Origin: Siphonodentalium dalli | Taxonomy: Eukaryota; Mollusca; Scaphopoda; Gadilida; Siphonodentaliidae | Length of the DNA: 64,000 nucleotides | Reading direction: 5' to 3' | NCBI GenBank assembly: GCA_032622095.1 | Contig: CP136063.1 | Coordinates: 145,629,379-145,693,378 of the forward strand | Part shown: one piece after another, positions 3,561-64,000 of the stretch | How the letters are laid out: the number at the start of each line of letters is the position of its first letter | How positions within the stretch are numbered: position 1 is the first letter of the stretch | Notes under the pieces: model-generated | What the model was told of the DNA's origin: nothing | The model's database searches: none | The model's input: the letters and a program-made list of their open reading frames with translations, nothing else | Program-made: the position numbers and the translations under genes

Positions 3561-5580
3561 AACGCAAATTTGGGGTTAACCAGTTAATTCTAAATCCCAA
3601 TGATTTACGAAGTAAAACTCTACTATTGGGTAACAATAATAAATGTTCTCTCTCGGCTTTGTTGATCTGCAGCGCCCGTGATAACTGTTGTCATTAGACG
3701 TGGTATAAGATCGTCACATGTTTGGCAGTTATGCTGCAAAACTCCAAACAAATGGCATGAACGATCATTGATGTTAATGGACTATTAATGGATTCTTTAT
3801 TTTAAACAATAATGTTGGCAATGAATATGGCAACCAGCGGCTCAGGGAAAATTAGTCCATGGATTATAGCGACAGTGAATTTGATTCTTTGTCCATATTA
3901 CTACGGAAGGTGATCGATAATCAGAAAAATGAGTTGACTTTATAATACTCATTCATTGTTCTATTGTGAATCAGAAATCCACCATAGTCCTAGTAATATG
4001 AGAACATAGGCATAGTTCTTCCTTGAATTTTAACCGCTTTTGACACATTGTATGGTCGTGGTACGCGTAATGACGGGTTAATCGGGAATAAATTGGTAAA
4101 GAAGCGATTTTGGTGTAAAAAAAAACGCAGGAGAGTCCTCGGTATAACATATCTAAAATCCGCTTTGGGAAAACTTTGTTATCCAAGATGGCGTCCAACA
4201 TGGATGTCTATATTACATCAGTTCTCGAAATAAGTCATTATACGATATATTGTGTCACAGGAATTACAAAATTATGCCATTCTGTGTGGAATTGTAGTAC
4301 GAAAGCGAATAGAGTGACACGGACAGAAACAAATACAACCGCGAACATGAAATGGCTGTCAAAATGGCCGCAACTCCAAGCCATACCACGACGAAAGCAA
4401 CATATTAGATAACCACATAGGATCTAAAATAGGTATTGGTAATCTTCAAGTATGTTGTTAAATATCTTTCAAGGTACACAGCTCAATAAAACAGGTCCAC
4501 CTGAAGGATTTACCGGCCACTGCAACGCAAGTCAAACCCAATGATTTACGTATTTAAATTTCGGGTTTTCTGCTTAGAATACATCGAACAGTCGCCAAAA
4601 ATAGTAATTTCGGGCATGCGACACACAAAGTAATGTTTAGCCACACAGTGCGTGGTAATTTCATTCGGCGTGATGATTAAATGCATAAATGGATTCACGG
4701 ATTCACACACTTTGTTTAATTATTCTGCCGGTCAAAATCAACCCCAATCGATCTTCAAGTCATTTCTTAATTAAAGATGTTATTTCAATGTTGTTTCACT
4801 CAATGGGCTATTTATTACTCCCTCTGGTGTATTCTGTGAATGAGTTTTTGACGTGTGATATGACATAGGAGTTATGGGCAAATGTGATTATAAATGTACT
4901 TGGGTATTTTCGTACTCGAACCGTGTAACGAAGATCGACAATTGTGGTCTGCTTATTATTCTGCATGCTATATCTCATGTATTATTCAGTTGCATATAGT
5001 GTAATAATGGTACTTTGGTATACAACACCATTTTACTTTACTAACAAGGGACGTACTTGAAAAATGCGAACCGGTTAGACTTTTTGTAGGTCGATGTATG
5101 TATTCGCGTGCGGATGTATCTTCGCGGATGTCTCATTGTTGCAGTATGTAATGTTTATGACCGCATTAATTGCTTTCGATATTTAGGTGTGAACCATGGC
5201 TGATAAGTCTCAAGAGTGTAAGTAAATAATTCGAGACATGACAATTGGCGGAATGGGGTGGAAGGCTGAACAGAATGACAATCTACTGAACAGAATGTGA
5301 AATTGCTCTGGACGGCCGATATATCCAGGAATATGGCACGAAGAGGACTCATTTTGGTGTCTGACGAAAGGCCGATATTCTTCCCAACCAAATATATTAA
5401 CCACTGACCAGACAACAGACGTTTCATTACAAGCTACAAAGCAGGGTTCAGTCCCATCGCTACGCTTTGTCTGAACGTTGCCGGCATGTGTATTTTCTTA
5501 ATTAAATCTAACATCTAAATCTAAAGTGCTCTGTCAGTTACAATTTATTCTGGCCTGATCTGGACAATTTTCAGTTTCTC
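3561..5580. other. Mostly unrecognised sequence
   Basis: No gene is supported. A short plus-strand frame at 3858-3944 begins MDYSDSEFDSLSILLRK and would allow a GT donor after LLRK, but nothing continues it. A fragment at about 4135-4200 resembles the 1.2-1.7 kb repeat. Minus strand 5155-5427 is open in two overlapping frames, neither of which I recognise. Confidence 0.4.
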
Positions 5581-5860
5581 AGAATAACGCAGAATGAATT
5601 GTAACCTACAAAAATCTCAAATAAATAAATGTGACATTTCTTCACATTACGTGTAGGTGCGGGCAGCGGTAAGCCATGCATAGGGGACTGAACTCCTGAG
5701 CTTGGTTTCATTGTTCGATCAGAATAACGCAGAATGAATTGTAACCTACAAAAATCTCAAATAAATAAATGTGACATTTCTTCACATTACGTGTAGGTGC
5801 GGGCAGCGGTAAGCCATGCATAGAGGACTGAACTCCTGAGCTTGGTTTCATTGTTCGATC
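5581..5860. repeat. Perfect two-copy tandem duplication, 140-bp unit
   Basis: The block 5581-5720 is followed directly by 5721-5860, which is the same except for one base in 'tagGggactg' versus 'tagAggactg' (5692 region versus 5832 region). Near identity points to a very recent duplication, or to an assembly or allele artefact. Confidence 0.95.
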
Positions 5861-28189: not shown

Positions 28190-30085
28190 TGGTTGCTGGC
28201 GGCTATGTTTTCCAACAATTCAAAAACATTTGATAGCTTTAGTCATGCAGAGTAGAATCCAAGATGGCCGCTGGCAGCCATGTTTTAATGTTGAATAACC
28301 CCAAGATGACTCGTTCCCATCTACATGTCAATGTCAAAAGTCAAGACAAATTTCATAATGATCGGACCAAAGGTACGACCTGTAGCCCGTGCCAAAGGAT
28401 TTAGTCATGCAAAGAGTAAAATCCAAAATGGCTGCTGGTGGCCATGTTTATGGCCGAATGACCCCAAAATTACTCGTTCCCATCTACAAGTCAATATTAA
28501 CACCCACAACAAATGTCATGATGATCAGATGAACAGTACGACCTGTAGCCCGTGCTAATGGATTGAATTTTGAAATCCAAGATGGCCGCTGGCGGCCATG
28601 TTTTTTTCCCAATGACCCCAAAATGACTTGTTTCCATCTACATTCCAATTTCAACAGCCATGACAAATTTTATGATGATCAGACTAAACGTACGACCTGT
28701 AGCCCGTGTTAAAGGATTTAGTCATACAAAGAGTAAAATCCAAGATGGCTGCTGGTGGCCATGTTTTTTGGCCGAATGGCCCCAAAATGACTCGTTCGCA
28801 TCTACATGTCATTGTTAACATCCATGACAAATTTCATGATGATCTGACCAAAGTTACGACCTGTAGCCCATGCTAAAGGATTTAGTCATGCAAAGAGTAA
28901 ATTCTAAGATGGCTGCCAGCGGCCATGTTTTTTGGCCGAATGACCCCAAAATTAATCGTTCCCATCTACATGTCAATATTAACATTCCTGACAAATTTCA
29001 TGATGATCAGACGAACAGTACGACCTGTAGCCCGTGCTAATGAATTGAATTTTGAAATCAAAGATGGCCACTGACAGCCATGTTTTTTGGCCGAATGACC
29101 TCAAAATGACTCGTTCCCATCTACATGTGATTGTTAACATCCATGACAAATTTTATGATGATCAGACTAAAGGTACGACCTGTAGCCTGTGCTAAAGGAT
29201 TTAGTCATACAAAGAGTAAAATCCAAGATGGCTGCTGGCAGTCATGTTTTTTGGCCGAATGACCCCAAAATTAATAGTTCCCATCTACATGTCAATATTA
29301 ACATCCATGACAAATTTCATGATGATCAGACGAACAGTACGACCTGTAGCCCGTGCTAATGGATTGAATTTTTTAAATCAAAGATGGCTGCTGATGGCCA
29401 TGTTTTTCAGCCGAATGACCCCAAAATGACTCATTCCCATCTACATGCCATTGTTAACATCCATGACAAATTTTATGGTGATCAGACTAAAGGTACGACC
29501 TGTAGCCCGTGCTAAAGGATTTAGTCATACAAAGAGTAAAATCCAAGATGGCTGCTGGCGGCCATGTTTTTTGGCCGAATGACCCCAAAATGACTCGTTC
29601 CCATCTACATGTCATTGTTAAAATCCATGACAAATTTTATGATGATCAGACCAAAGGTACGACCTGTAGCCCGTGCTAAAGAATTTAGTCATACAAAGAG
29701 TAAAATCCAAGATGGCTGCTGGCGGCCATGTTTTTTGGCCGAATGACCCCAAAATCACTCGTTCCCATCTACATGTCAATATTAACATCCATGACAAATT
29801 TCATGACAATAAGACGAAGAGTACGGCCTGTAGCCCGTGCTAATGGATTTAATTTTGAAATCCAAGATGGCCATGTTTTTTCCCCGAATGACCCCAAAAT
29901 GACTCGTTCCCATCTACATGTCAATGTCAACATCCATGACAAATTTCATAATAATCGGACCAAAGGTACGAACTGTAGCCCGTGCTAAATGAAATTGTTG
30001 ACGAATCACACACGCATACACACACAGATGACGGATACCAAGCCATGGCAATAGCTCAAACTTTACAAAGTAAAGTTGAGCTAAC
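28190..30085 (+). mobile_element. Array of about 12 units with hairpin end
   Basis: Each unit has 'AAGATGGC.GCTGG.GGCCATGTTTTTTGGCCGAATGACCCCAAAATGACTCGTTCCCATCTACATGTCA' and ends 'GTACGACCTGTAGCCCGTGCTAA'. 'CTGTAG' landmarks lie near 28381, 28544, 28698, 28862, 29026, 29181, 29345, 29501, 29665, 29829 and 29974. Spacings are mostly either 154-156 or 163-164 bp, because one unit type lacks about 9 bp. The array ends with 'cacacacag' and a hairpin pairing ATAGCTCAAACTTTAC with GTAAAGTTGAGCTA (30050-30084). Open frames inside come from the repeat. A truncated copy is at 48350-48655. Confidence 0.85.
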
Positions 30086-45949: not shown

Positions 45950-46765
45950 GTGGTATATTATTGCAACCGACCTATATACCAAATATCAATTGAATCCGTT
46001 AATATTTCATTGAGTTATCGCACTAACGGTGATAAAATTGTGATTAAAATAGACAAACTAAGACCCATAACTCCGCGAAAACAACTCGGACAAACCTGGT
46101 TTTCGAACTCGTCCGAGATATTGTTGCAGGAGACTCATATACCAAATATTGTTGAAATCAGTTAATATTTCATCGAGTTATCGCGCTAACGGTGATAAAT
46201 TTGCTAAAAATAGACAAACTAAGACCCATAACTCTGCGAAAAAATTCGGACAAACCTGGTTTTCGAACTCGTCCGAGATATTGTTGCAGGAGACTCATAT
46301 ACCAAATATTGTTGAAATCGGTTAATATTTCATCGAGTTATCGCGCTATCGGTGATAAGATTGCTAAAAATAGACAAACTAAGACCCATAACTCCGCGAA
46401 CAAATTTTGGACAAACCTGGTTTTAGAACTCGTCCGAGATATTGTTGCAGGAGACTCATATACCAAATATTGTTGAAATCGGTTAATATTTCATCGAGTT
46501 ATCGCGCTAACGGTGATAAAATTGCTAAAAATAGACAAACTAAGACCCATAATTCCAGAAAAAAAATTCGGACAAACCTGGTTTTTGAACTCGTCCGAGA
46601 TATCGTTGCAAGAGTCTCATATACCAAATATTGTTGAAATTGGTTATCGTGCTATCGGTGAAAAACTAAACTAAAAACCATCTAAGATGGATAACTCTTG
46701 TAAAAAAGTTCGGACATGACCCATTTTCTACAGGCAGTAAATAGTCATTGGGGGCAACTGCCATA
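45950..46765 (+). repeat. Array of 160-bp units (about 4.5 copies)
   Basis: 'agacccataactccgcgaaaa...ggacaaacctggttttcgaactcgtccgagatattgttgcagg' recurs with landmarks at 46061, 46222, 46382 and 46543 (spacing 160-161 bp). The units are very alike. A related but different unit begins at 63700. A run of 15 C follows at 46788-46802. The plus frames at 45920-46637 are produced by the repeat. Confidence 0.9.
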
Positions 46766-46895
46766 CCAAATTTTCCGAAGGTACGAACCCCCCCCCCCCC
46801 CCTCCATTACCACCATTAGATATCTAAACCATGTTCCCCCAAACACCTGTGATAAAGACAAAGGAAATCTACAACATAGCAGCAAACACCCACAA

Positions 46896-47099
46896 TCAAG
46901 CTGTGTGTACCTCATGTTCTACTATCCGTTCTATCACCTGGTACGTTCTGAAAGTTGGGTTCCCAGTTTGCTGATTAATGTGTGCCCGAGTGTTAGTAAA
47001 TGATTTTTCTCCAATAATCCGAGAGGTCTTTTTGACCATGGTGTCACCATCATGTCCAGCGACAACAAGAGGCAAGTCAGGACCACCTTGAGTGACATT
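46896..47099 (-). CDS. Host gene, exon 5 as seen (likely last coding exon)
   Basis: A good acceptor (GATTTCTCTACCAG) is followed by an open frame starting NVTQGGPDLPLVVAGHDGDT and containing KKTSRIIGEKSFTNTR and NQQTGNPTFRTYQ. It then reads VIERIVEHEVHTA-stop. The exon either ends at the stop (46896) or at the CAG|GTGATA donor (46938), which is weak and lacks G at +5. It joins in phase 0 to the 29-nt microexon at 48802. The peptide is polar and looks like conserved protein sequence. I cannot name its domain. Another strong acceptor (TTTGTCTTTATCACAG) lies just downstream near 46850, leaving room for a further short exon or an alternative end. Confidence 0.8.
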   Translation of the reverse strand, partial: NVTQGGPDLPLVVAGHDGDTMVKKTSRIIGEKSFTNTRAHINQQTGNPTFRTYQVIERIVEHEVHTA

Positions 47100-47314
47100 C
47101 TGGTAGAGAAATCAGCAATACATGCGGTTAGTAGGTGCTCAGGCAAGAATGATTTCTCCCAAAAAAGATTAGTGAGAAATGACAAAATATCTGATGTACT
47201 TTTTTTTAAAGCGAATATTTTGTTTCAGAAGTCACTGTGATGTTATAAAAATATTGCAACAATTTTCCTAAGGGCTTCAGAAATAAATTCCCACATGCCT
47301 AAATACAGGATTAA

Positions 47315-47521
47315 CCCTTTCAGTGCCAAGTCCGAATTTTGTATCAACCCATATTTCCTTGATCATTTTTCAAATTTATTGATTATAATAATGTGATACA
47401 TTGATGGAAAGAGCTCTAACAGCTCTTTCCATCAATGTATCACATTATTATAATCAATAAATTTTAAAAATGATCAAGGAAATATGGGTTGATTCAAAAA
47501 TCGGACTTGGCACTGAAAGGG
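47315..47521. mobile_element. TTAA-flanked 207-bp palindrome (piggyBac-like MITE)
   Basis: TTAA-CCCTTTCAGTGCCAAGTCCGA at the left and its reverse complement followed by TTAA at the right (TTAA at 47311-47314 and 47522-47525). Arms of about 100 bp are nearly perfectly complementary and meet at 'aagagctctaacagctctt'. TTAA duplication with CCC-starting ends is typical of piggyBac-type elements. It lies in the intron between exons 4 and 5 of the host gene. Confidence 0.92.
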
Positions 47522-47924
47522 TTAAACAGTTCTGCCAACCCGTTAAAAATTCTGCTTCAGAAATGAGTCAAATGTGCTTGAATGCACTTCCAGCCTTTTG
47601 AGTTGAAATTATTATTAAAATCATGTATAACTTATTTTAAGCCACAAAACCTCTTTCTTCGGATGATATCATGAGTATATAAGGTCTAGTGGTTCAGGAT
47701 ATGATAGTTAATGAGATGTTAATGGATAGACAATAGACATTAATGACACCAGTCCTGATGGGAGCTAAATGCAAGCAATATATTTTGATTACAGGATTAA
47801 AATGTTCAATTACGGTTTTCTAAGATTCTTGAACAATATGGAGTATGGGGGCTGATTTATTTCCAATCAAGTCAAACTATAGTCGGGTACTGGGATACCC
47901 TCGTGGTGCTAATTGAAGGACACA

Positions 47925-48655
47925 AATTCAACATTTACATATGGACAAAGAGGGATAACTCTTGAATGGAAATTGCAAACAAAAACATAACTGAACCTCC
48001 ATGTGTATCTGATTAAAAGCACCATACCTGTCGGCATTGTTACGTCAACAATTTTGGGAAAACCCGGGGAAACCCCAAAATAGTAGTTGTGATGTCATAC
48101 ATGTGCTTTCTATATTTAGGAAGCGAACATCTCAGTGTGGCCGCATTTGACAGGTCTGCGTGTTCAACAATAAATTAGTATTGATACAGACTATCACCCA
48201 AATGATATCCAAGTCGCCAACCAATAAAATCCTTAGCATATCCCCGTAAACATGGTATTATTGCCTGTTATTCTCGAAAATTATTATCGGGCTGCGGTGG
48301 TGAATGTAAATTACGTTGTGCCGCTAAAGCGGGCGGCAGTGTTGAAAGAGTTAACATCCATGACAAATATGATGATGATCAGACAAACAATACAGCTTGT
48401 AGCCCGTGATAATGGATTGAATTTTGAAATCCAAGATAGTCGCTGGTAGCCATGTTTTTTTGCCGAATGACTCCAAAATGACTCATTCCCATCTACATGT
48501 CAATGTCAACGGCCATGACAAATTTCATAATGATCCGACCAAAGGTGTGACCTGTAGCCCATGAAAATTGTTGACAGACAGATGCACCAACACACAGACG
48601 ACAGATACCAACCCATGGCAATAGCGCAAACTCTACAAAGTAAAGTTGAGCTAAA
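47925..48655 (+). mobile_element. Fragments of two array families
   Basis: 47925-47995 carries one unit of the 8.0-kb element ('gggataactcttgaatggaaa'). 48350-48655 carries about two units of the 28-30 kb array, in order, and its end ('ccatggcaatagcgcaaactctacaaagtaaagttgagctaa') with the terminal hairpin. They are truncated relative to the larger copies. Confidence 0.7.
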
Positions 48656-48801
48656 AATTATTCATACATTCATAAATTTTTTTAATTTTTAAGAACACGG
48701 GTAATTATTTTGATGGATTTAATATTTTTTGCTTAATAAGGAGAACGTATATAAAAAATGAAGATAGTTTAAGTATTAAGAATGGACCAAAAAGTACAAA
48801 C

Positions 48802-48830
48802 CTCTGTCTGACCATGTGGATGAGAGACAC
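48802..48830 (-). CDS. Host gene, exon 4 as seen: 29-nt microexon
   Basis: The acceptor is strong (TTATTTCATTTGCAG) and the donor is GAG|GTTTGT, which is weak. The 29 nt add VSHPHGQTE, with the first Gly codon split across the previous junction. A length of 29 (3n+2) is exactly what is needed to take the phase-1 end of exon 3 to the phase-0 start of exon 5. Skipping it would shift the frame and meet a stop within ten codons of exon 5. The in-phase fit is the main reason to accept so short an exon. Confidence 0.65.
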
Positions 48831-48959
48831 CTGCAAATGAAATAAGTATGAATAACCACGAAGGTCAACTTGTTCAAACAGATAGAAAATATTACAAAAA
48901 TCTATCACAGCGCATACAGCTACCGGTATGCTCTAATTAATTGACCCCTTTAACGAGGT

Positions 48960-49165
48960 TATGGGCTGGTAATGACCGCGGTCATACCGCCACTACACCG
49001 CTATAGTACACTGTCCATTCGCGGTAACGCGCGGTATCTGACCGTGGTAGTTTAGGAAGTCCAACGCAGTAATCTAGTCCGTTACTGGCGTACACCGCGG
49101 TAGTATTTTCCGTGACCGCCTTCCACCGCGGTCATTTCCCGTGTAAACTGCGATAGAAAAATCTG
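48960..49165. other. GC-rich island with repeated ACCGCGGT
   Basis: Palindromic CCGCGG words occur near 48978, 49095 and 49131, together with 'cggtaacgcgcggtatctgaccg'. The stretch is rich in CpG in contrast to its AT-rich surroundings. It lies in an intron of the host gene, 130 bp from the microexon. It may be a foreign insertion or a regulatory element. Confidence 0.5.
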
Positions 49166-49169
49166 CTGA

Positions 49170-52100
49170 TAAGAATATTTTTTCAATGTTGCTTTGAAGA
49201 CACAAGGCTGTGTAAGATATAACGGCGATTTTTGATCTGTCTTGTTCAATTTTTCCTATAATATGCGTTAATTTATGAAGAAACTGAAGCTTACATTCAT
49301 TACTCTCCTGAAACTAAATTTATTTTAGAGTACTAACGTCTTCAATCATTATGGTTGACATCACGTGCAAATAGGTGATAATGTGCTAGGATCTATATTC
49401 AGACATACTTCCAAGTCTACTCGTACGTAACCCAACTGGAATGTTCGGATAGCGAGTTTTTAGCGGAATTTTGCAGAATAAACGCGACCACAGGTAAGCC
49501 AATGAGACTGAGAATCTGCAAATTAAATTCCAAATATGACGACACAAGCTACTTCAAAGAATAATAAAATCCGATATAAAGAACTATTAAACACCACCTC
49601 AGTGTCTTTATTTTATTCTCTGCCCCAGATGTTTAAGAAAATATTTATCAGAAAATATTTATTAGTATTTGAAAACTCGACACATATAAGCACGAGAGTA
49701 GGTCACGATATACTGTAAACAGTGTGCGTCCTTGACCTGACTCATTGCATCATGTCTACATGGGCACGTGTGCATGATAGACCCACATTCAATGACTGCG
49801 GCATAATCCATTTGATGTATCTAATATTGCGACATAGTTAACTGCACGTGTTTACAGCCTATAATTTCTACTGGATGACGTCACATTTGGAATGATGTTT
49901 TTTAAAGCCCGGAAACGATCATTGTACAAACCCCAACAACCTGTCCTCGTATTTAATGTAGCAAAAGCGTGAACCTGTGTACATGGGTATATTCAATTTC
50001 ATATGACATTGTGCTTTCTAATATCATTTTCTTCAAATTTGAAATGGATAAACGTGACGTCAAAAGTAAATGTCTTTTAAAGTTACGAAAGTTGGACTGC
50101 CATACAGATACACGGCTGCCGGTACAACTGACTTAGTTTGTCTTGACTATGATACCTCATTTTCAATTGCAATATGATTGATAGGTTAATGTTTAGAGAA
50201 GTCGCGACTCGAGGGAATTCCCAGGGAACCCCCATGCGACAGTGGGTCTGTGGGGTTTCAACTTGTAACACACGGTGCGCCCCACGTGCGTTCTCGGTTG
50301 TTTATTGTATGGCGTCTATATATGGAATGTGAATGCCTCGCAACATACATTTGCCTTATAAAATCTGAAGCTTTTATGGATTTTAATAATAGCATCACGC
50401 TGTTTGTGATATATAAAACATTTAGATAAAATAATAAAGAATTTAATTACAACATAATCATTACATGTACTGAATTTAATGTTTTTAATTTTGAAAATGC
50501 CGATCGAGTTTGTTCACTTACTGGTATGTATTAATGAAACCTACCGTAGGCATACCTGCTTTAGTTTCCAACCATGTATACATAATTATATAAATGATGC
50601 TACCTGCATTTCTGCAATGACAGTATATCACAAACGAATTCAACATTTGAGGGTTGTTTCACAACTGGTACCGAAATTACGTTGTCCCGTTAGTTACATG
50701 ATTACTATATACTACTTACAAATACAACCGTAACACGGCATTGTAACAAAAGGTTATCACCACACCTATTACCATGACACTGCTGATTGCCGTGGATAAT
50801 TTTGAGTTCTGTTCTATTATAGTTAAATCATGATTAGTTGCACATAACACAACCTCGTTAATTAGAGCATAGCTGTATATCAGTTTGGCCATTTACTGCT
50901 ATTGTGTGACTGGAGACCCAATACAATTCTTTAATAGAACTTTACACCATCTACTATCACAAAATTTATAAATGTGGAGCATAACTCATTATCCAAGTTA
51001 TGTACATGTAAAATAAAATCCTTGACAATCCATTTTATAAAATGTTCTTACGCTCCGATACATGCGATAAAACATTCAAGTTCATGAAATCAACGAAATA
51101 CAATTGCAGCATTTGCCCATGCTATATAAGTTGTATGGAATTTCTCAGATATGGTGATCTAAGAGCACAATGAAACATGCAGTATTAAAGTTGTTTATAT
51201 GGACTAGACTATAAACAATGCCACAATGCTTTGACATCTGTAACCAATGTCTTTTTTGTTGCATTTATGGGCATATAAAATTGTAAGAGTCTTGACAATA
51301 TACTGTATAAATTTGTAAAGTCACAACCAAATTATAAAAAGTATGATGTCGGCCACTTATAATTTTATACGCCCATATTAAAATGCAATAAAAAAGGATG
51401 TTAATTGCTAATAATTATGCCCCAGAACATTACTATCAACATATTAAAGATGGATTATCTCTTCATATAACACTTTTGAAATAGTTTAGTGGGTATAAAT
51501 AATAAATACGATTTGAAGACCCAAGTCCAGAAATGGTTCTATCAAATAATATTGATTTTATTTCAAATATTTTATTATAAAATGAGATGATGAAGTGGTT
51601 TATTTTTAGAACAGACCATGCAGGCGATACCATATAGTGATAGAGATCATTAGGGCATTCACATAGCTATTTTACAAATGTCCCAGATTGCTTGTTAGTA
51701 TTGTTTTATTAAATAGTTATAAGTGAAAATGAGTTTAATTAAAAGTTTATTTGTGACTAAATTACACAATAAAATTTCTGGTAACAGTAACCAATATTGT
51801 TCGTTTGCAAAACAACCACACATTTTTAGACCAGAAAATATTCTAAATATAATCAATATTAATCGACAGGGGTTTTCGATTAATATCTATTATTTTATAC
51901 CCCAGTAACTATATAGCACATGATTAGAAAGAGATAGACCATCTTTAAAATGAATTATATCAAATCATTTTGGGGTAATAATTAACAATTTCCATTAGAC
52001 GAGTATACAGTTCAAACGATTGGTCAAAATGTTTATGGCTGAATTTTGCTTCCAAAGAAAAGGCGGGAAAAAGAAGTTGAATGCCGATCAAGTAATTGAC

Positions 52101-52430
52101 TTGAAAGTAAACAAGATGAAACTGATGCAGAGGAAAAGAAAACAGTTATGTCATCAGCTACAGAGTAGCTCAACATGGAGAGGGAATAATTTGGAATATG
52201 TTAAACATTGCAGTAAATGGGAGGAATAAGGAAAGTTAAAAAGTTAAAGTAATTCACTGAAGGGGTTGAATTGATGATGCAAACGAATTGCATCAGAGAT
52301 GTGGGGTCGAGATGCAGCAGTTTCACCAAACATGGGCTTGGATTGAAAATGCATTGCTGTCGCGATAAAAATTGACAACAGGACAGTAAATGCTCACCTC
52401 ACTGTAAAGGCTCTGAAGACCACAAAATCA
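49170..52430. other. Intronic sequence, no supported gene
   Basis: AT-rich. On the plus strand, 'CGCGACCACAG|GTAAGCC' at about 49486-49500 is a donor-like site without a partner. The plus frame 52020-52229 (contains KKKLNADQVIDLKVNKMKL) is lysine-rich, but has no family I can name and no clear exon borders. The rest shows nothing recognisable. Confidence 0.4.
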
Positions 52431-52436
52431 CTTTAA

Positions 52437-52560
52437 CCCTTTCTATACTAAATACTAATTGACAAGTAGTTCCCTCAGGAAATGTTCAGATCATAGATCA
52501 TTTGTTGAACTTATTATCTGAACATTTCCCACCAATGAATACTTCTGCACATCTACTATA
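52437..52560. mobile_element. CTATACTAAAT-ended element, another copy
   Basis: TTAA (52433-52436) followed by CCCTTTCTATACTAAATACTAATTGACAAGTAGTT. Inside, GGAAATGTTCAGAT and ATCTGAACATTTCC are inverted around 'catagatcatttgttgaactt'. It is inserted in, or abuts, a fragment of family A ('gctcacctcactgtaaaggctctgaagacca', 52390-52425). Confidence 0.6.
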
Positions 52561-52869
52561 TTTTTGTCTCTCTGTCGTAAGCTCATTTTTGCTAAACACC
52601 ACTCCAAATGAATAATGGACCATACCAAAGTATACTACTTTGTTACAATTAGTTTAAAACAGGTACATAGCTAGATTATCTCCTTTGAGCTGTTGGGGAT
52701 GTCCACTTTAAAATTTCCAACTGCACACCCCCCTCCCCTCCCCCATAGTCCGTCCCCTCACTCAAAACAGGACCAAACTCTCTGGCCATAAAATTCCTTT
52801 TGCACATCCCCCATAGGTCGGACACTTTTCCCACTTTTGAAAATTTCCAAACTGATATGCTACTTTTTT

Positions 52870-53225
52870 TTACCGACCGACCCCATTTAAACATATTTGA
52901 ATCCCAATTATCCATGGACCCTACACACCAAATGTCTTATTAATCAGTCAGGTGGTTCCAGAGAAAATAATATTTTAATGAGTTTTATATATCAATGATT
53001 TCATTGGAAAGAAGTGGTAAGTCCCCCATTTTAACAGACCTGTATCCCAGTATATCCCTGGCCTCACCTCTATTTGACTAAGTGACCTATCTGAATGAAT
53101 TCAAATCCCAGAGTCACCAAAGGACCCTCAATATTAAATGTCAGCTAAATAGACCTGTCGGTTCTTGAGAAGTAGTTGTTTTAAGAATTAGTATGGAGGG
53201 CAGTTGTTATGCCCCTGGCATTCTG
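52870..53225 (+). mobile_element. Diverged family A repeat fragments
   Basis: 'ccaaaggaccctcaatattaaatgtcagctaaatagacctgtcggttcttgagaagtagttgttttaagaatta.tatggagg' matches 26485-26570 and 30350-30430. The upstream stretch is a second, more decayed unit. A CCCCTCCCC-rich tract precedes it (52725-52760). Confidence 0.6.
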
Positions 53226-53590
53226 CAATTTGTGTTGATATTTGATCACATGTGGAATTATGCCTTTGAAAATTGAGCTTGAAGTTTGTCGATTAGCAAC
53301 TGGCCATTAACCATCTGATTATTACAGGTGAAGCCAGTTATCAATCAATCAATCACAAAATATGTTATTCTCACTTATGTGAAAAGTCTCATCAATGACA
53401 ATTTGGCTCATGTTCTAAATACAAATTCCAATAGTTTTACTATGTTAAGCTTTGAGAATGAAAATGCCAAACACGCTTCATGCCATCCAGTATTCAGGAT
53501 TCCACACCTCCACTTACAAAACAACATACAAATTGTAATTAAACATTTGTTTCACTGAAAAAACCAAATGCCACATATAAACTTGATGTA

Positions 53591-53803
53591 CAGTAATGCC
53601 CTAAATAATCGACTCCTTAACCACAGCAGAACTATGGGTAAATTTTCAGGATTTAGTCGGAAATATGGCTTTTTGCCATTCATCGGAAAGCTCTCACTGA
53701 GAGCTTTCCGATGAATGGCAACAAGCAATATTTCCAACTAAATCCTGAAAAATTACCCATAATTCTGCTGTGGTTAAGGAGTCGATTATTTAGGGCATTA
53801 CTG
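53591..53803. mobile_element. Palindromic MITE, family 1 (full copy, intronic)
   Basis: CAGTAATGCCCTAAATAATCGACTCC and its inverse, TA on both sides (53589-53590, 53804-53805), 213 bp. Arms are nearly perfect. It lies in the host-gene intron between exons 3 and 4, next to the 2.5-kb hAT element. Confidence 0.92.
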
Positions 53804-53938
53804 TAGATGTTATTGAAAACTGAACACAATAACTATTGCTGTCTATAGAAATCATAGAAAATATATGAAATACATCAATAGAAAATTCTATAAGAAACAT
53901 GACAGCATCTTTCAGGTGTCACTTCCAATGCCAAACAT

Positions 53939-56454
53939 TAGTGCTGAAACGGTTGACCTATTTTTGTAGCCGGTTAACCGTGACGTGTAACCGGATCATA
54001 ACCGGATATCCGCTATTTTCAACCTATGACTTTACACTCATTATTTACACCATAATATGAACCAATATATCATCATAATTTGATTTATCAACTGTATGGC
54101 GATTTCACGTAAGGGGTCATCTCAAAACTACTATCGGGAAATCAGCCTATTTCCCGATAGATCCCGATAGCATATATATGCAGTTATCGGGAAATGACGC
54201 AACGTTTTTCGGGAAATTATCGGAATATTTACATAGTCTATCGGGATTCTATCAAAGTTTACTTTCATTTCGGAGTATCATATTCCGAAAACAACGCGCA
54301 TGTTGTTTGGAAAGTTTCTGTATCGGGATTACTCCGGACTTTTATCGGGATTTTATGTGTTATAGGCCTATCTGTTATATTATTGATTTAATAGTTTCCT
54401 AATATGAGAAATCGTTAGTATCATAAAGTTTTACAGTATCAGCTGGGGGACACGTGTCGTAGAACTATTATATGTTATAATGTGGTTATCAGTAGGTGCT
54501 ACGTACGTACAATATAGGTATTTTACCCAGACAATACACCCACCCATCGGGAAATCTTCAAAATCAATTCGCGGGGAGCATACCCAAATATGTATGCAGT
54601 TGGAGGCCTATACTATCTCAAAGCTTGTGTTTGTAATATGTATAAATACATCCGACTTTTAAATGTGGAGGAAATAAAGATATAAATATATTATAGCAAA
54701 TTTATGTAAACGATTTGTATTTATTCGCGAATCGCCGACGACACAATTAATGCAATTGAGTGCAGTCTTAACATGAGATGTCGTATGTTCTATTTTTAGC
54801 CCGATTCCAGGAATTAGGGTCATCGATATTTACGTTTCTGGGAACAACACACGTGGCATTGCAGTTCGAGTATGTCTTGAAGAAGACAAATCATTATCAG
54901 ATTTCACACAGCGAACGGATTTTAAAATAAAACAATTTCAAACATGGGACTCCAGCTTAAAAAAAATATCGGGCCTGTACGTATATTCCGAAAAAAATAG
55001 CCTAGGCGAAATTTATTGCAATGTGCGACAGCATTCGATGTGCTTTATAAATATAACGCAATTGCATTTTTGTTTACCAGCACATGCATGGATCGAAAAC
55101 AACAAAACTAGCCAGTAGACAGCAGTAGAAAGAAAAATATAACTCCACAGTGGGTTAAACTTTAAGCATGAAATTTTACTGTTATGCCTACATTCTGCAT
55201 GGTCATGCAGTTTCGAGGGGGGGGGGGCTGGTACATCGATCATGCATGGCATGAATATCTACTCAGGTTCTCTACCCTTTAGTCAAGAGTATATAGAGAT
55301 TCGTAACATGACATATGGGGGCGTGTCCTGTTGTACATGTAAAGGTTTAGCATTAACAATTTAGCGTAATATTCCATAGTTTGTTCATGAATCGTAATAA
55401 TATGGTAAATAAAGAGCGTCTATACAGACCTGTGAAATTATGAATGGAAAATTCCATACAAATCTGCAGTGCAAAAGTTATAAATACGCGAAGCAATCAT
55501 AACATTTAACTGGCAATTAAATGTGTGCATGGGCTGCTTTTCATACTCTACATTAATTTCGTTTTCTGTAATTACTACTAATTATAAATAGGCTGCATTT
55601 GAACATAGCCTAATTATGTTGACAGTGTCGAATTTCACGATTGCATCATCAAGGTCAAGGTAACTCGATGCGTTTTATTTGTAGCAGGCCACTATATTTC
55701 GTCATCTTTTTTCAAAAAGATGGTCTTGCTAACTTTTATTTAGTTTGATATCTCAAATGCGCGTACTTTTAGCGATATTAATACCCAGTCCATCGTTTTA
55801 AAATGACTTGCCAATAAATATTATGTCATATATGACGCGCATTATCGACGCATCAAAATGTGCAGGGATCTATCGATCATAACTGGGTCAAGTACGAACA
55901 TACATATGAGGTTCTCAAAGGGGTAAACATTTTTGTCAGCGCTGATTATTTTGTTCTTGTGTGATTACTAATGTTCACATTCACTGCACATTATCACTTA
56001 GATAGTCTCCAGGAAATTCACCAAATTGTGATGTGAAGCATTAAAGAATTGACTGCGTAAAACTTGTGTTAATTTTTATTTGTGTCAGTATAGGCGGCGA
56101 GGCGAACACGTGCCAGACGCGCCATTTTCAAAAATAATGATTTAGCGCATTTCGTTATCTACATTTTAAGAATTACCTTGTCAATTTTACACTGAGTATG
56201 GTTGATAAAAAAAATACACGGGAGAAATTATATTTATTGGCCGTAGTTTTGAGAACAAATTTATTCTTGAATGATGAATCGAAATCGTGGCAGCGTGAAT
56301 TGTTTACTTTCAAGAAACTGATGGCGCCAAAAAATAATCGCAAATGGGGAAAATCAGCCGAACAATATAGTTCTCAAACATTGTTTGAAGAAAGATACCG
56401 TTGTCGACAGTAGCCGGTTGTCAACCGGATATCCGGATATCCGTTTCAGCACTA
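53939..56454. mobile_element. hAT element, 2.5 kb, exact 8-bp duplication
   Basis: Left end TAGTGCTGAAACGGTTGAC. Right end, reversed, TAGTGCTGAAACGGATATCC. CCAAACAT flanks both (53931-53938 and 56455-56462). GGATATCC/CCGGTTA words occur just inside both ends. A cluster of TATCGGGA/TTCCCGATA words fills 54130-54360. At 2.5 kb it is long enough to have held a transposase, but only broken short frames remain (54178-54402, 56198-56413). It inserted in the intron between exons 3 and 4 of the host gene, 97 bp from exon 3. Confidence 0.93.
56198..56413 (+). CDS. Short frame at the right end of the hAT element
   Basis: 71 codons from ATG, basic and polar (contains MAPKNNRKWGKSAEQYSSQTL), ending 41 bp before the element's right end. 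It could be the end or start of a decayed element-encoded protein. I see no hAT dimerisation motif or BED finger. CDS status is doubtful. Confidence 0.25.
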   Translation: MVDKKNTREKLYLLAVVLRTNLFLNDESKSWQRELFTFKKLMAPKNNRKWGKSAEQYSSQTLFEERYRCRQ

Positions 56455-56550
56455 CCAAACATGTTATTTTATATATTAGAATCTCAATTAAAAGTTTATT
56501 AAAAATAGGTGTGGAATCCTGAATAGAATATTTGATGATCTACTAGTTAC

Positions 56551-56630
56551 CAGGCAGGTTCTTGGTGTCATCATGTGATTGTGCAATTACAGCTTGTGCA
56601 ATCATTACATCATCTTCTAATGTCTTCATT
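56551..56630 (-). CDS. Host gene, exon 3 as seen
   Basis: The acceptor is TGTATTTCACAG and the donor is CTG|GTAACT. The 80-nt exon is open in the frame set by exon 2 and encodes MKTLEDDVMIAQAVIAQSHD then DTKNLP. The Arg before it is coded across the junction (AG|A) and the following Gly is coded across the next one (G|GT). The acidic, Ala/Gln/Ile-rich segment looks helical. The 7.7-kb intron that follows holds the hAT element, a MITE and repeat fragments. Confidence 0.88.
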
Positions 56631-56839
56631 CTGTGAAATACATACATAAGATTGTTTACGATTTCAACACAGATTTTATTTATAGTTTAGTTTAGGCCAT
56701 GCAAAGTCAATATACCATTTTTCAGGCAAAAACATTTTGAAAACCATGCGAGCGCACGGTTTTTAACACATTCACTGCGACACCCCCAGCCACAACATAA
56801 TGTCGCCTGAACTGTGATAGCAATAATTACTTTATATAG

Positions 56840-57290
56840 CCCTGATGGTTCTTGAGAAAATGTCTTAAGAATTACTATGGAGGGAGAGTTATGTCCCAGG
56901 CTCTGCCCCTTTTTTCCACACCAAATATGAACCCATTCGGTCCAATGGATCTGGAGAAGATGTTCAAAGAATTGTTGGCGGATGGATGGATGAGGAGGAA
57001 TGACTATAGCTTGATCAGAGTCTGTCTCAAGTGAGCAAAAAATGATGGAATTCAGTTAATTTTTTTTGGAGTTTATATCAATTCTGACATACAAAAGCTG
57101 TCAAATATTTACAAACTACCATCCATAACTCAGGCAAAACAAATCAGGGGAAACCTGGTTTGCTCACTGATTTGAGATAATGTGACAAGCAACTTGTATT
57201 CCAAAAATTATTGAAATTGGTTCATATGTTTGTCTGGACAGACAGTCAATTCAGTATAACCACATTCGCATTGAGAGTGGGGGTATACAA
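56840..57290 (+). mobile_element. Family A right end, then another array-type element
   Basis: 56840-57040 matches family A ('ttaagaattactatggaggga.agttatg', 'ccacaccaaatatgaacccattcgg', then GGATGGATGA and 'tatagct...agtgagc'). 57100-57290 is one unit with 'tccataactcaggcaaaa.aaatca.gggaaacctggtttgc', a GGACAGACAG run and a hairpin-like 'GTATAACCAC...GTGGGGGTATAC'. The two lie head to tail in the intron between exons 2 and 3. Confidence 0.6.
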
Positions 57291-58019
57291 ACTAAATATA
57301 AACAACTCTGTCATATACATGTGTATCAAATGATGGAATTATTTCCCTCCACACCATAAAGTAAAAAATAAAGTAACTCTACTGTCAGTCACTGACCATG
57401 CTCTGTTATATTGTATTTTTTTTTTTAATTATATCACAATTGACTGAAAAAGTTGTCAAAACTTCATATTTAATACTAGTACATTTCTTGGCTCTCAAAC
57501 ATGGAAGCATGGTAAAATTAAAATACAGAAATAACATTGCACTTCATTCGTGTAGGTAAAATTTGTCAGATAAATTGAGTTTCAATGATCACCCCTTCAT
57601 GGCTTCACAAAATGGACTTGATCAACTTTTGAATAACTTCTGTTAACTGCAAGTTTTGACTTATGAAAAAATTTGAAGTTGATCCTGACCCATGAGCAAT
57701 ACATTCTGAGATGGCACCAGCATGCTATTGTCTTGCCATTCTGTTCAAACGATCTTTGATGAACATAGTTCTACTTGATTGTTTTAAATACATTACCATT
57801 ACATTACCTACGTCATTTCAGACATCTTTCCGTTGCACACACTCAAATTTTTTGAACAGACTGACAGGCAAGACTGGGGTGTTTTTTTAATAACTGACAT
57901 GTACTAGAAGCACTTCTTCTGAATGAAAAGTGCCATGAAAAGAAAATTTTATGTCAGGTGAGTTGAAAAGTTTGTAAACAGGATAATCCTAAACATAGTA
58001 TCATCAAAACATGGCTTAC

Positions 58020-58116
58020 CTATTGAGCACCTTGCCAAACTCCTCACTGACGGGAGAAACATCACCAGAATGGGACGAAATCAAGGTGCTCTCTGGCAAA
58101 TCTGACATCATGATTT
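58020..58116 (-). CDS. Host gene, exon 2 as seen
   Basis: The acceptor is TTTTCTTATTTTTAG and the donor is AATAG|GTAAGC, both strong. The frame set by exon 1 is open across all 97 nt and encodes IMMSDLPESTLISSHSGDVS and PVSEEFGKVLN. The Glu before it and the Arg after it are coded across the junctions (G|AA and AG|A). The exon is Ser- and acid-rich, as in flexible linkers with phosphorylation sites. Overlapping open frames on the plus strand are shadows. Confidence 0.9.
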
Positions 58117-58580
58117 CTAAAAATAAGAAAATTCCAGTTAAAAAAATCAGCAATAATATTGGTTGCTTCATGATCATTAAAGTTGAAATATAAATGACTT
58201 TGTGAGGTTGATAATGAGCTGACAGTGTCATAATTTGTTGAAAACATTGGTTCCCTAAGCAATGGAACATTTGGCTTCTTCTAGCTATTCTATGGGTTGT
58301 CGGTTAGTCATTAAGAGCACAATCAAACAATAATATCTCCCGCTGTCACTAGTTGTATACAAGTCATGTAAACCCATTTACATTAAAAAACCTCACAAGA
58401 TGTGCTAATTTATTAATAGGGATTAGATTCAGATGGACCAAATTGAAAATATCTACCATATACATATATACATATAGAAGCCTGTCATCCAATTCTCAGA
58501 AAATGAACAGATATTTAGTTACACAAACCTGACACATAAACCTGACATATTTTATTCCTTCATATCAAAATGATAAGATA

Positions 58581-58940
58581 CAGGATTCAGCCTAGAGGTG
58601 ACTTCTTCTCCCAATTCTCACTAATTTACGAGGTTGAAGTAGCCCTGGAAATTCCAAACTTGACCGACAAAATTGCCCCCAAAAATCATTCTCATTTTTG
58701 AGGAGGCTGACAAAATAGAATGCACATAGCTACCAGACATGATGTGAATGCAAACAATTCATAATTCAGACATTCAAATTATAATTTTAATATTTCATAT
58801 TCTCGTTGCATAGCGACTACCGTACTGATCCACTTCAATGTTATAACATGCACTTCCTCCTGAACGATGACCACTTCAACTCATTTTTGTGACAGGGAGA
58901 AGACAATTTGCCCTGAAATTCACCTCTAGGCAGGTCCCTG
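58581..58940. mobile_element. Probable small hAT element in host-gene intron
   Basis: The left end CAGGATTCAGCCTAGAGGTGA and the right end, reversed, CAGGGACCTGCCTAGAGGTGA resemble each other. They also resemble the ends of the 390-bp hAT element at 17590. Flanks ATAAGATA and ACAAGACA agree at 6 of 8 positions, as an aged duplication would. Length is 360 bp with no coding capacity. It lies between exons 1 and 2. Confidence 0.6.
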
Positions 58941-59063
58941 ACAAGACATGTCTTTGCTACAAAAAGTGTCCAAAGCTTACGACTCCTACAATTCGCTATA
59001 TAAAATGTTTTCTCCATCTTGGGATGGCTGGATGCCTAGAAATGTATTTGGTGGCCGACTCAC

Positions 59064-59166
59064 CTTCTCTTGAAGAATCACTACTACTCTGATTTTCTAT
59101 TTCCTTTTCAAAATATTTCTGTTTCTGATTGAAAGACTGTTGGGGATCTGAAATGCTGTTAGGATT
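59064..59166 (-). CDS. Host gene, exon 1 as seen (5' part lies off the window)
   Basis: The acceptor is CACTTTTCCTTGCAG and the donor is GAAG|GTGAGT, both strong. The 103-nt exon is open and encodes NPNSISDPQQSFNQKQKYFE then KEIENQSSSDSSRE, ending in phase 1. The SFNQKQKYFEKEIE segment resembles, from memory only, the 'SF.(D/E).(Q/R)KYFE.E' segment in the C-terminal tail of Scribble/LAP-type scaffold proteins. The conserved segment that follows it there is not seen in exon 2. The identity is therefore only a suggestion. The upstream exons, with any LRR or PDZ domains, would be to the right of this window. Confidence 0.9.
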
Positions 59167-63700: not shown

Positions 63701-64000
63701 ATAGGTAAAATCGGTTAATATTTGTTCAAGTTATCGCAAAATGACTAATTAAGGGCCATAACTCTATCAAATATTATCGGGCCAGGCTGGTTTTCGAACT
63801 CGTCCAGGATATTATTGGAAGACACTTATATACCAAATTTTAGTTGAATCGGATGACGTTTGTTGAAGTTATCGCGCTAACGAGCTAAAAATTCATGAAA
63901 AATGACTAATTAAGGGCCATAACTCCATCAAATTTTATCGGGCCAGGCTGATTTTCGAAGTCGTCCGAAATATTCTTGGCAAGTATGTCTATTCCAAATT
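63700..64000 (+). repeat. Start of a 160-bp unit array, cut by the window edge
   Basis: Landmark 'gggccataactc' at 63755 and 63915 (160 bp apart), with 'atcgggccaggctg.ttttcgaa' and 'gttgaagttatcgcgctaacg'. It is related to the 45.95-46.7 kb array but clearly a different subfamily. The array continues past the window. Confidence 0.8.

Follow-up and report, generated by a model that had tools for sequence, protein, structure and literature searches.

A likely gene with a Scribble-like tail and a plausible frame-shifting microexon in the scaphopod Siphonodentalium dalli

Described Scribble tails and the mollusc locus

The tail of vertebrate SCRIB is reported to bind beta-spectrin through SADH motifs (Y-[KR]-X-[FL]-A-A-[ILV]-P), one of which resides in alternative exon 36, whose inclusion adds 25 residues together with the spectrin-binding motif (PMC4350421). 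The same report describes SADH as vertebrate-specific and missing in fly and worm, and gives a conservation of 13% between the fly and human Scribble tails (PMC4350421). In human breast tumours, the SCRIB tail exons are reportedly underused, and the tail has been linked to NUMA1 (PMC4919504). The schistosome Scribble reportedly has no C-terminal domain (PMC4006718), in contrast to the locus described here, where the sequence suggests a tail carrying two blocks like those of human SCRIB. The Drosophila and schistosome proteins are presumed to be LAP-family relatives of this locus. Among the matches listed in literature searches on Scribble splicing, Scribble in molluscs, and microexons in Scribble or bivalves, nothing concerned the locus.

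The window, which is the whole stretch of DNA that was analysed, covers 64,000 nt of the Siphonodentalium dalli genome (GCA_032622095.1, contig CP136063.1), and its minus strand contains five segments between positions 46896 and 59166 that join into one reading frame. On balance, the sequence favours reading these segments as the 3' coding end of a Scribble (SCRIB/LAP4) gene of an animal. They would then encode part of the tail that comes after the PDZ domains, and those domains, like the leucine-rich repeats, would sit upstream, outside the window; in the 59-64 kb region, no PDZ domain was found by Pfam in the three minus frames, nor by eye among the open frames. The encoded tail would be a flexible scaffold segment carrying two short blocks common to vertebrates (in exons 1 and 3), followed by an end encoded by exons 4 and 5.

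The likeness to the human tail begins in exon 1 (59064-59166, minus strand; 103 nt, internal), which encodes NPNSISDPQQSFNQKQKYFEKEIENQSSSDSSRE and whose peptide SFNQKQKYFEKEI resembles a block of the human SCRIB C-terminal tail that we take to be SFKERQKYFELEV. It resumes in exon 3 (56551-56630, minus strand; 80 nt, internal), which encodes MKTLEDDVMIAQAVIAQSHDDTKNLP, where the peptide across the exon 2/3 junction, RMKTLEDDVMIAQAVIAQSHD, resembles a tail block that is presumably RMKSLEQDALRAQMVLSRSQE. The two blocks lie on one strand and in the same order as in SCRIB. There are also differences: 43 residues separate the blocks here, versus 139 in the provisional human tail used for comparison, and exons 4 and 5 are unlike the end of that tail.

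By analogy with the vertebrate tail, this segment may help to keep Scribble at the cell cortex or to bind partners, but these exons lack the SADH motif through which the vertebrate tail binds spectrin. In particular, the motif does not occur in the joined peptide, and a looser form of it does not occur in any of the six frames of the window; because SADH is reported to be vertebrate-specific, its absence says nothing about membership in the Scribble family. The comparison suggests that two tail blocks are common to vertebrate and mollusc Scribble, though the fly and human tails are described as poorly conserved. If the blocks are ancient, they would mark a tail function that is older than the vertebrate spectrin-binding motifs.

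The exon chain and the end of the tail

An earlier, sequence-only reading had claimed that five exons join in phase here, and its coordinates, lengths, AG/GT ends and open frame were all confirmed. The five segments are 103, 97, 80, 29 and 204 nt long, with an AG acceptor before all five and a GT donor after each of the first four, and when joined they form a single open frame of 170 aa that ends in a TGA at 46896-46898. Of the three frames of exon 1, only frame 0 is open. Exon 2 (58020-58116, minus strand; 97 nt, internal) brings exon 1 into phase with exon 3, and the frame is also kept if both exon 2 and exon 3 are skipped. A missed middle exon was considered, with one candidate in the intron between exons 1 and 2 and another in the intron between exons 2 and 3, and both were rejected since neither resembled, by eye, the middle of the provisional SCRIB tail.

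Splice sites were scored by a simple log-odds with provisional matrices, and all AG (2906) and GT (3743) sites on the strand were ranked. By this measure, the acceptors of exons 1 to 5 rank 18, 52, 124, 5 and 39 among the AG sites, and the donors of exons 1 to 4 rank 2, 17, 89 and 244 among the GT sites, making exon 4's donor the weakest in the chain.

Candidate exon 4 (48802-48830, minus strand) is a 29-nt microexon. In the region separating exon 3 from exon 5, six open exons with non-negative site scores fit the phase of exon 3, and three of them also bridge to exon 5; among these three, the 29-nt exon scores highest (8.2 versus 3.8 and 3.2) because of its acceptor. An 18-nt version (48813-48830) uses the same acceptor and scores 8.3 with a slightly better donor, but misfits the phase of exon 5. 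Because the 29-nt exon shifts the frame, skipping it would cut the tail short: the predicted protein would continue with NLPECHSRWS and then stop, 13 residues past the second SCRIB-like block. As a spliced exon, the microexon is plausible and unproven.

The candidate terminal coding exon 5 (46896-47099, minus strand) has 204 nt including the TGA and encodes 67 aa. Five open terminal candidates follow exon 4, and none of the other four is as long. Its single-sequence structure prediction is a long two-stranded beta-hairpin with 27 of 67 residues at a pLDDT of at least 90 (mean pLDDT of 77.4 and pTM of 0.35; one of the five models averaged 49.2). The single control, a different reading frame over mostly the same DNA, had 0 of 67 residues at that level and a mean of 62.2. 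A fold search with the exon 5 model gave 720 matches, none of them at E <=0.001; the best had an E of 0.26, and they were taken as generic hairpins. The closest polyA-like hexamer lies about 1.1 kb beyond the stop, past a tandem array.

Taken together, the splice signals, the phase and the structure prediction make it plausible that the microexon and the terminal exon are real. Another arrangement is unlikely but keeps an appreciable chance, in which exons 1 to 3 are the Scribble tail and exon 4 or 5 is used otherwise, through read-through past exon 3 or a different terminal exon. Exons 4 and 5 together show no similarity to the provisional SCRIB tail (1675 of 2000 shuffles were as good), the donor of exon 4 is the low-ranking one noted above, and the acceptor of exon 5 (4.1) is outscored by those of two other terminal candidates, at 46846 (7.6) and 39595 (5.9). 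Read-through past exon 3 adds NLPGN and then meets a stop at once, which is compatible with such an end. Against it stand the acceptor of exon 4, which is fifth among 2906 sites and belongs to the best of the three bridging exons, and the length and predicted fold of exon 5. As an observation in its own right, the strong acceptor-like site at 46846 on the minus strand lies 50 bp past the exon 5 stop, and could mark an alternative last exon.

With the five-exon Scribble tail as the preferred reading, it may tentatively be supposed that the frame-shifting microexon is a switch, whose inclusion would yield a long tail ending in the beta-hairpin and whose skipping would yield a short form; the confidence in this proposal is low. 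If true, the switch would parallel alternative exon 36 of vertebrate SCRIB by another route. Both are small exons within the tail-coding region, and including or skipping either would alter the tail, but the candidate exon here is frame-shifting and, unlike exon 36 as reported (PMC4350421), carries no spectrin-binding motif.

Family assignment and chance

The human SCRIB tail used for comparison is a provisional sequence, verified only in part, and was picked after the peptides had been seen. When this provisional tail was aligned to the window's 2932 open six-frame segments of at least 15 residues, the two highest scores, 52 and 48 compared to 42 for the third, belonged to the segments containing exons 1 and 3. 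In a shuffled-tail control, a best score of at least 52 appeared in 2 of 200 shuffles and both scores together in none of 200, while the reversed tail reached a top score of 43. Individually, exon 1 aligned with a score of 48, equalled by 1 of 2000 shuffles, and exon 3 with a score of 47, equalled by 0 of 2000. Exon 2 alone showed no similarity to the provisional tail, with 856 of 2000 shuffles being as good.

Part of the provisional tail is verified by published data. Two phosphopeptides of SCRIB isoform 2, RVsLVGADDLR (S1297) and ALsPAELR (S1405), are in print (PMC4247952), and the provisional tail holds both of them, 108 residues apart, with the published spacing; they verify the stretch between them only, and not the two matched blocks. 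A literature search for tail peptides did not find the two matched blocks in print.

That the gene is real but belongs to another family, with the SCRIB-like blocks arising by chance or from a common short motif, is improbable, with a small chance remaining. The resemblance spans only about 34 residues, and it comes from an after-the-fact comparison with the provisional human sequence. On the other side, two collinear blocks on one strand whose joint scores no shuffled tail reproduced, together with the partial verification of the provisional tail by the peptides reported in PMC4247952, argue for Scribble. The joined peptide has no Pfam or PDB relative; P7_N_core (E of 0.021, 15.2 bits against a cut-off of 27) and POC1 (E of 0.072) were taken as chance matches. 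Further, when 112 of the 170 residues were searched for in collections of genome and viral contigs, there were 50 and 10 pattern matches, with 0 confirmed.

The sequence-only reading had also argued, from phase, that the odds of such a chain by chance are low. As stated, this argument has little force, since many candidate exons were available to choose from: in order-2 random 14-kb sequences, using the weakest sites of the observed chain as site thresholds, some in-phase five-exon chain was present in 88 of 300. A smaller control run gave a chain in 2 of 9 controls, with 4 chains in the reversed sequence and 27 in one random sequence. The summed splice score of the observed chain was more discriminating, as it was matched by 6 of the 300 random sequences and, with looser thresholds (score 0), by 2 of 60. 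At these looser thresholds, the real 14 kb has 2283 chains, the best scoring 41.6 versus 39.5 for the chain described here. At stricter thresholds, there was no chain in 16 further stretches of 14 kb from the window, which included both strands and in some cases partly overlapped the gene.

The base composition points the same way. The joined exons have a G+C content of 0.42, compared to a mean of 0.36 in their surroundings, and 1.7% of 20000 random draws were as high. Their first codon position is rich in G and poor in T, a frequent trait of coding sequences. Overall, the chance tests and composition make a gene at this locus likely, but not certain. That splice-like sites were merely chained by chance in AT-rich DNA is very improbable: phased chains do arise in the random sequences and in the smaller run, but few random sequences reach the summed splice score, and the coding-like composition, the SCRIB-like blocks and the hairpin prediction for exon 5 all speak against it.

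The claim that a real multi-exon gene had been missed by open-frame scans is therefore supported, mainly through the SCRIB-tail resemblance of exons 1 and 3 and not through the phase argument. The best reading of the locus is a genuine gene of an ordinary sort, whose tail has a frame-shifting microexon that is plausible and unproven. The analysis puts a name to a gene that open-frame scans overlook, and is otherwise ordinary annotation.

Introns, repeats and surroundings

The introns had been described as full of transposons, a description that holds in part. Each of the last two introns contains one palindrome. The one in the intron after exon 3 spans 53586-53808, with 111-nt arms that are 95% complementary, and the one in the intron after exon 4 spans 47311-47525, with 105-nt arms that are 97% complementary. 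Both are near-perfect, about 220 bp long and almost free of a spacer, and they are possibly foldback elements. Coding transposons inside the introns were sought with Pfam at an E of 0.05 and none was found in the frames scanned, leaving palindromes and satellite-like repeats only. The scan covered all minus frames of 46-64 kb and two of the three plus frames of 50-64 kb, and no domain reached this threshold in them. The tRNA and Rfam searches gave 0 matches.

Several tandem repeats surround the gene. Just beyond exon 5, a 161-bp unit is repeated in 4.2 copies at 45974-46646, and related copies, again spaced by 161 bp, occupy the window's final stretch (63732-64000). A second array at 28238-29997 has a 164-bp unit in about 10 copies, with further grouping of the copies at periods of 319 and 484. 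Finally, a 140-bp unit is present in two tandem copies at 5579-5860; they match at 99%, and are therefore probably a recent duplication.
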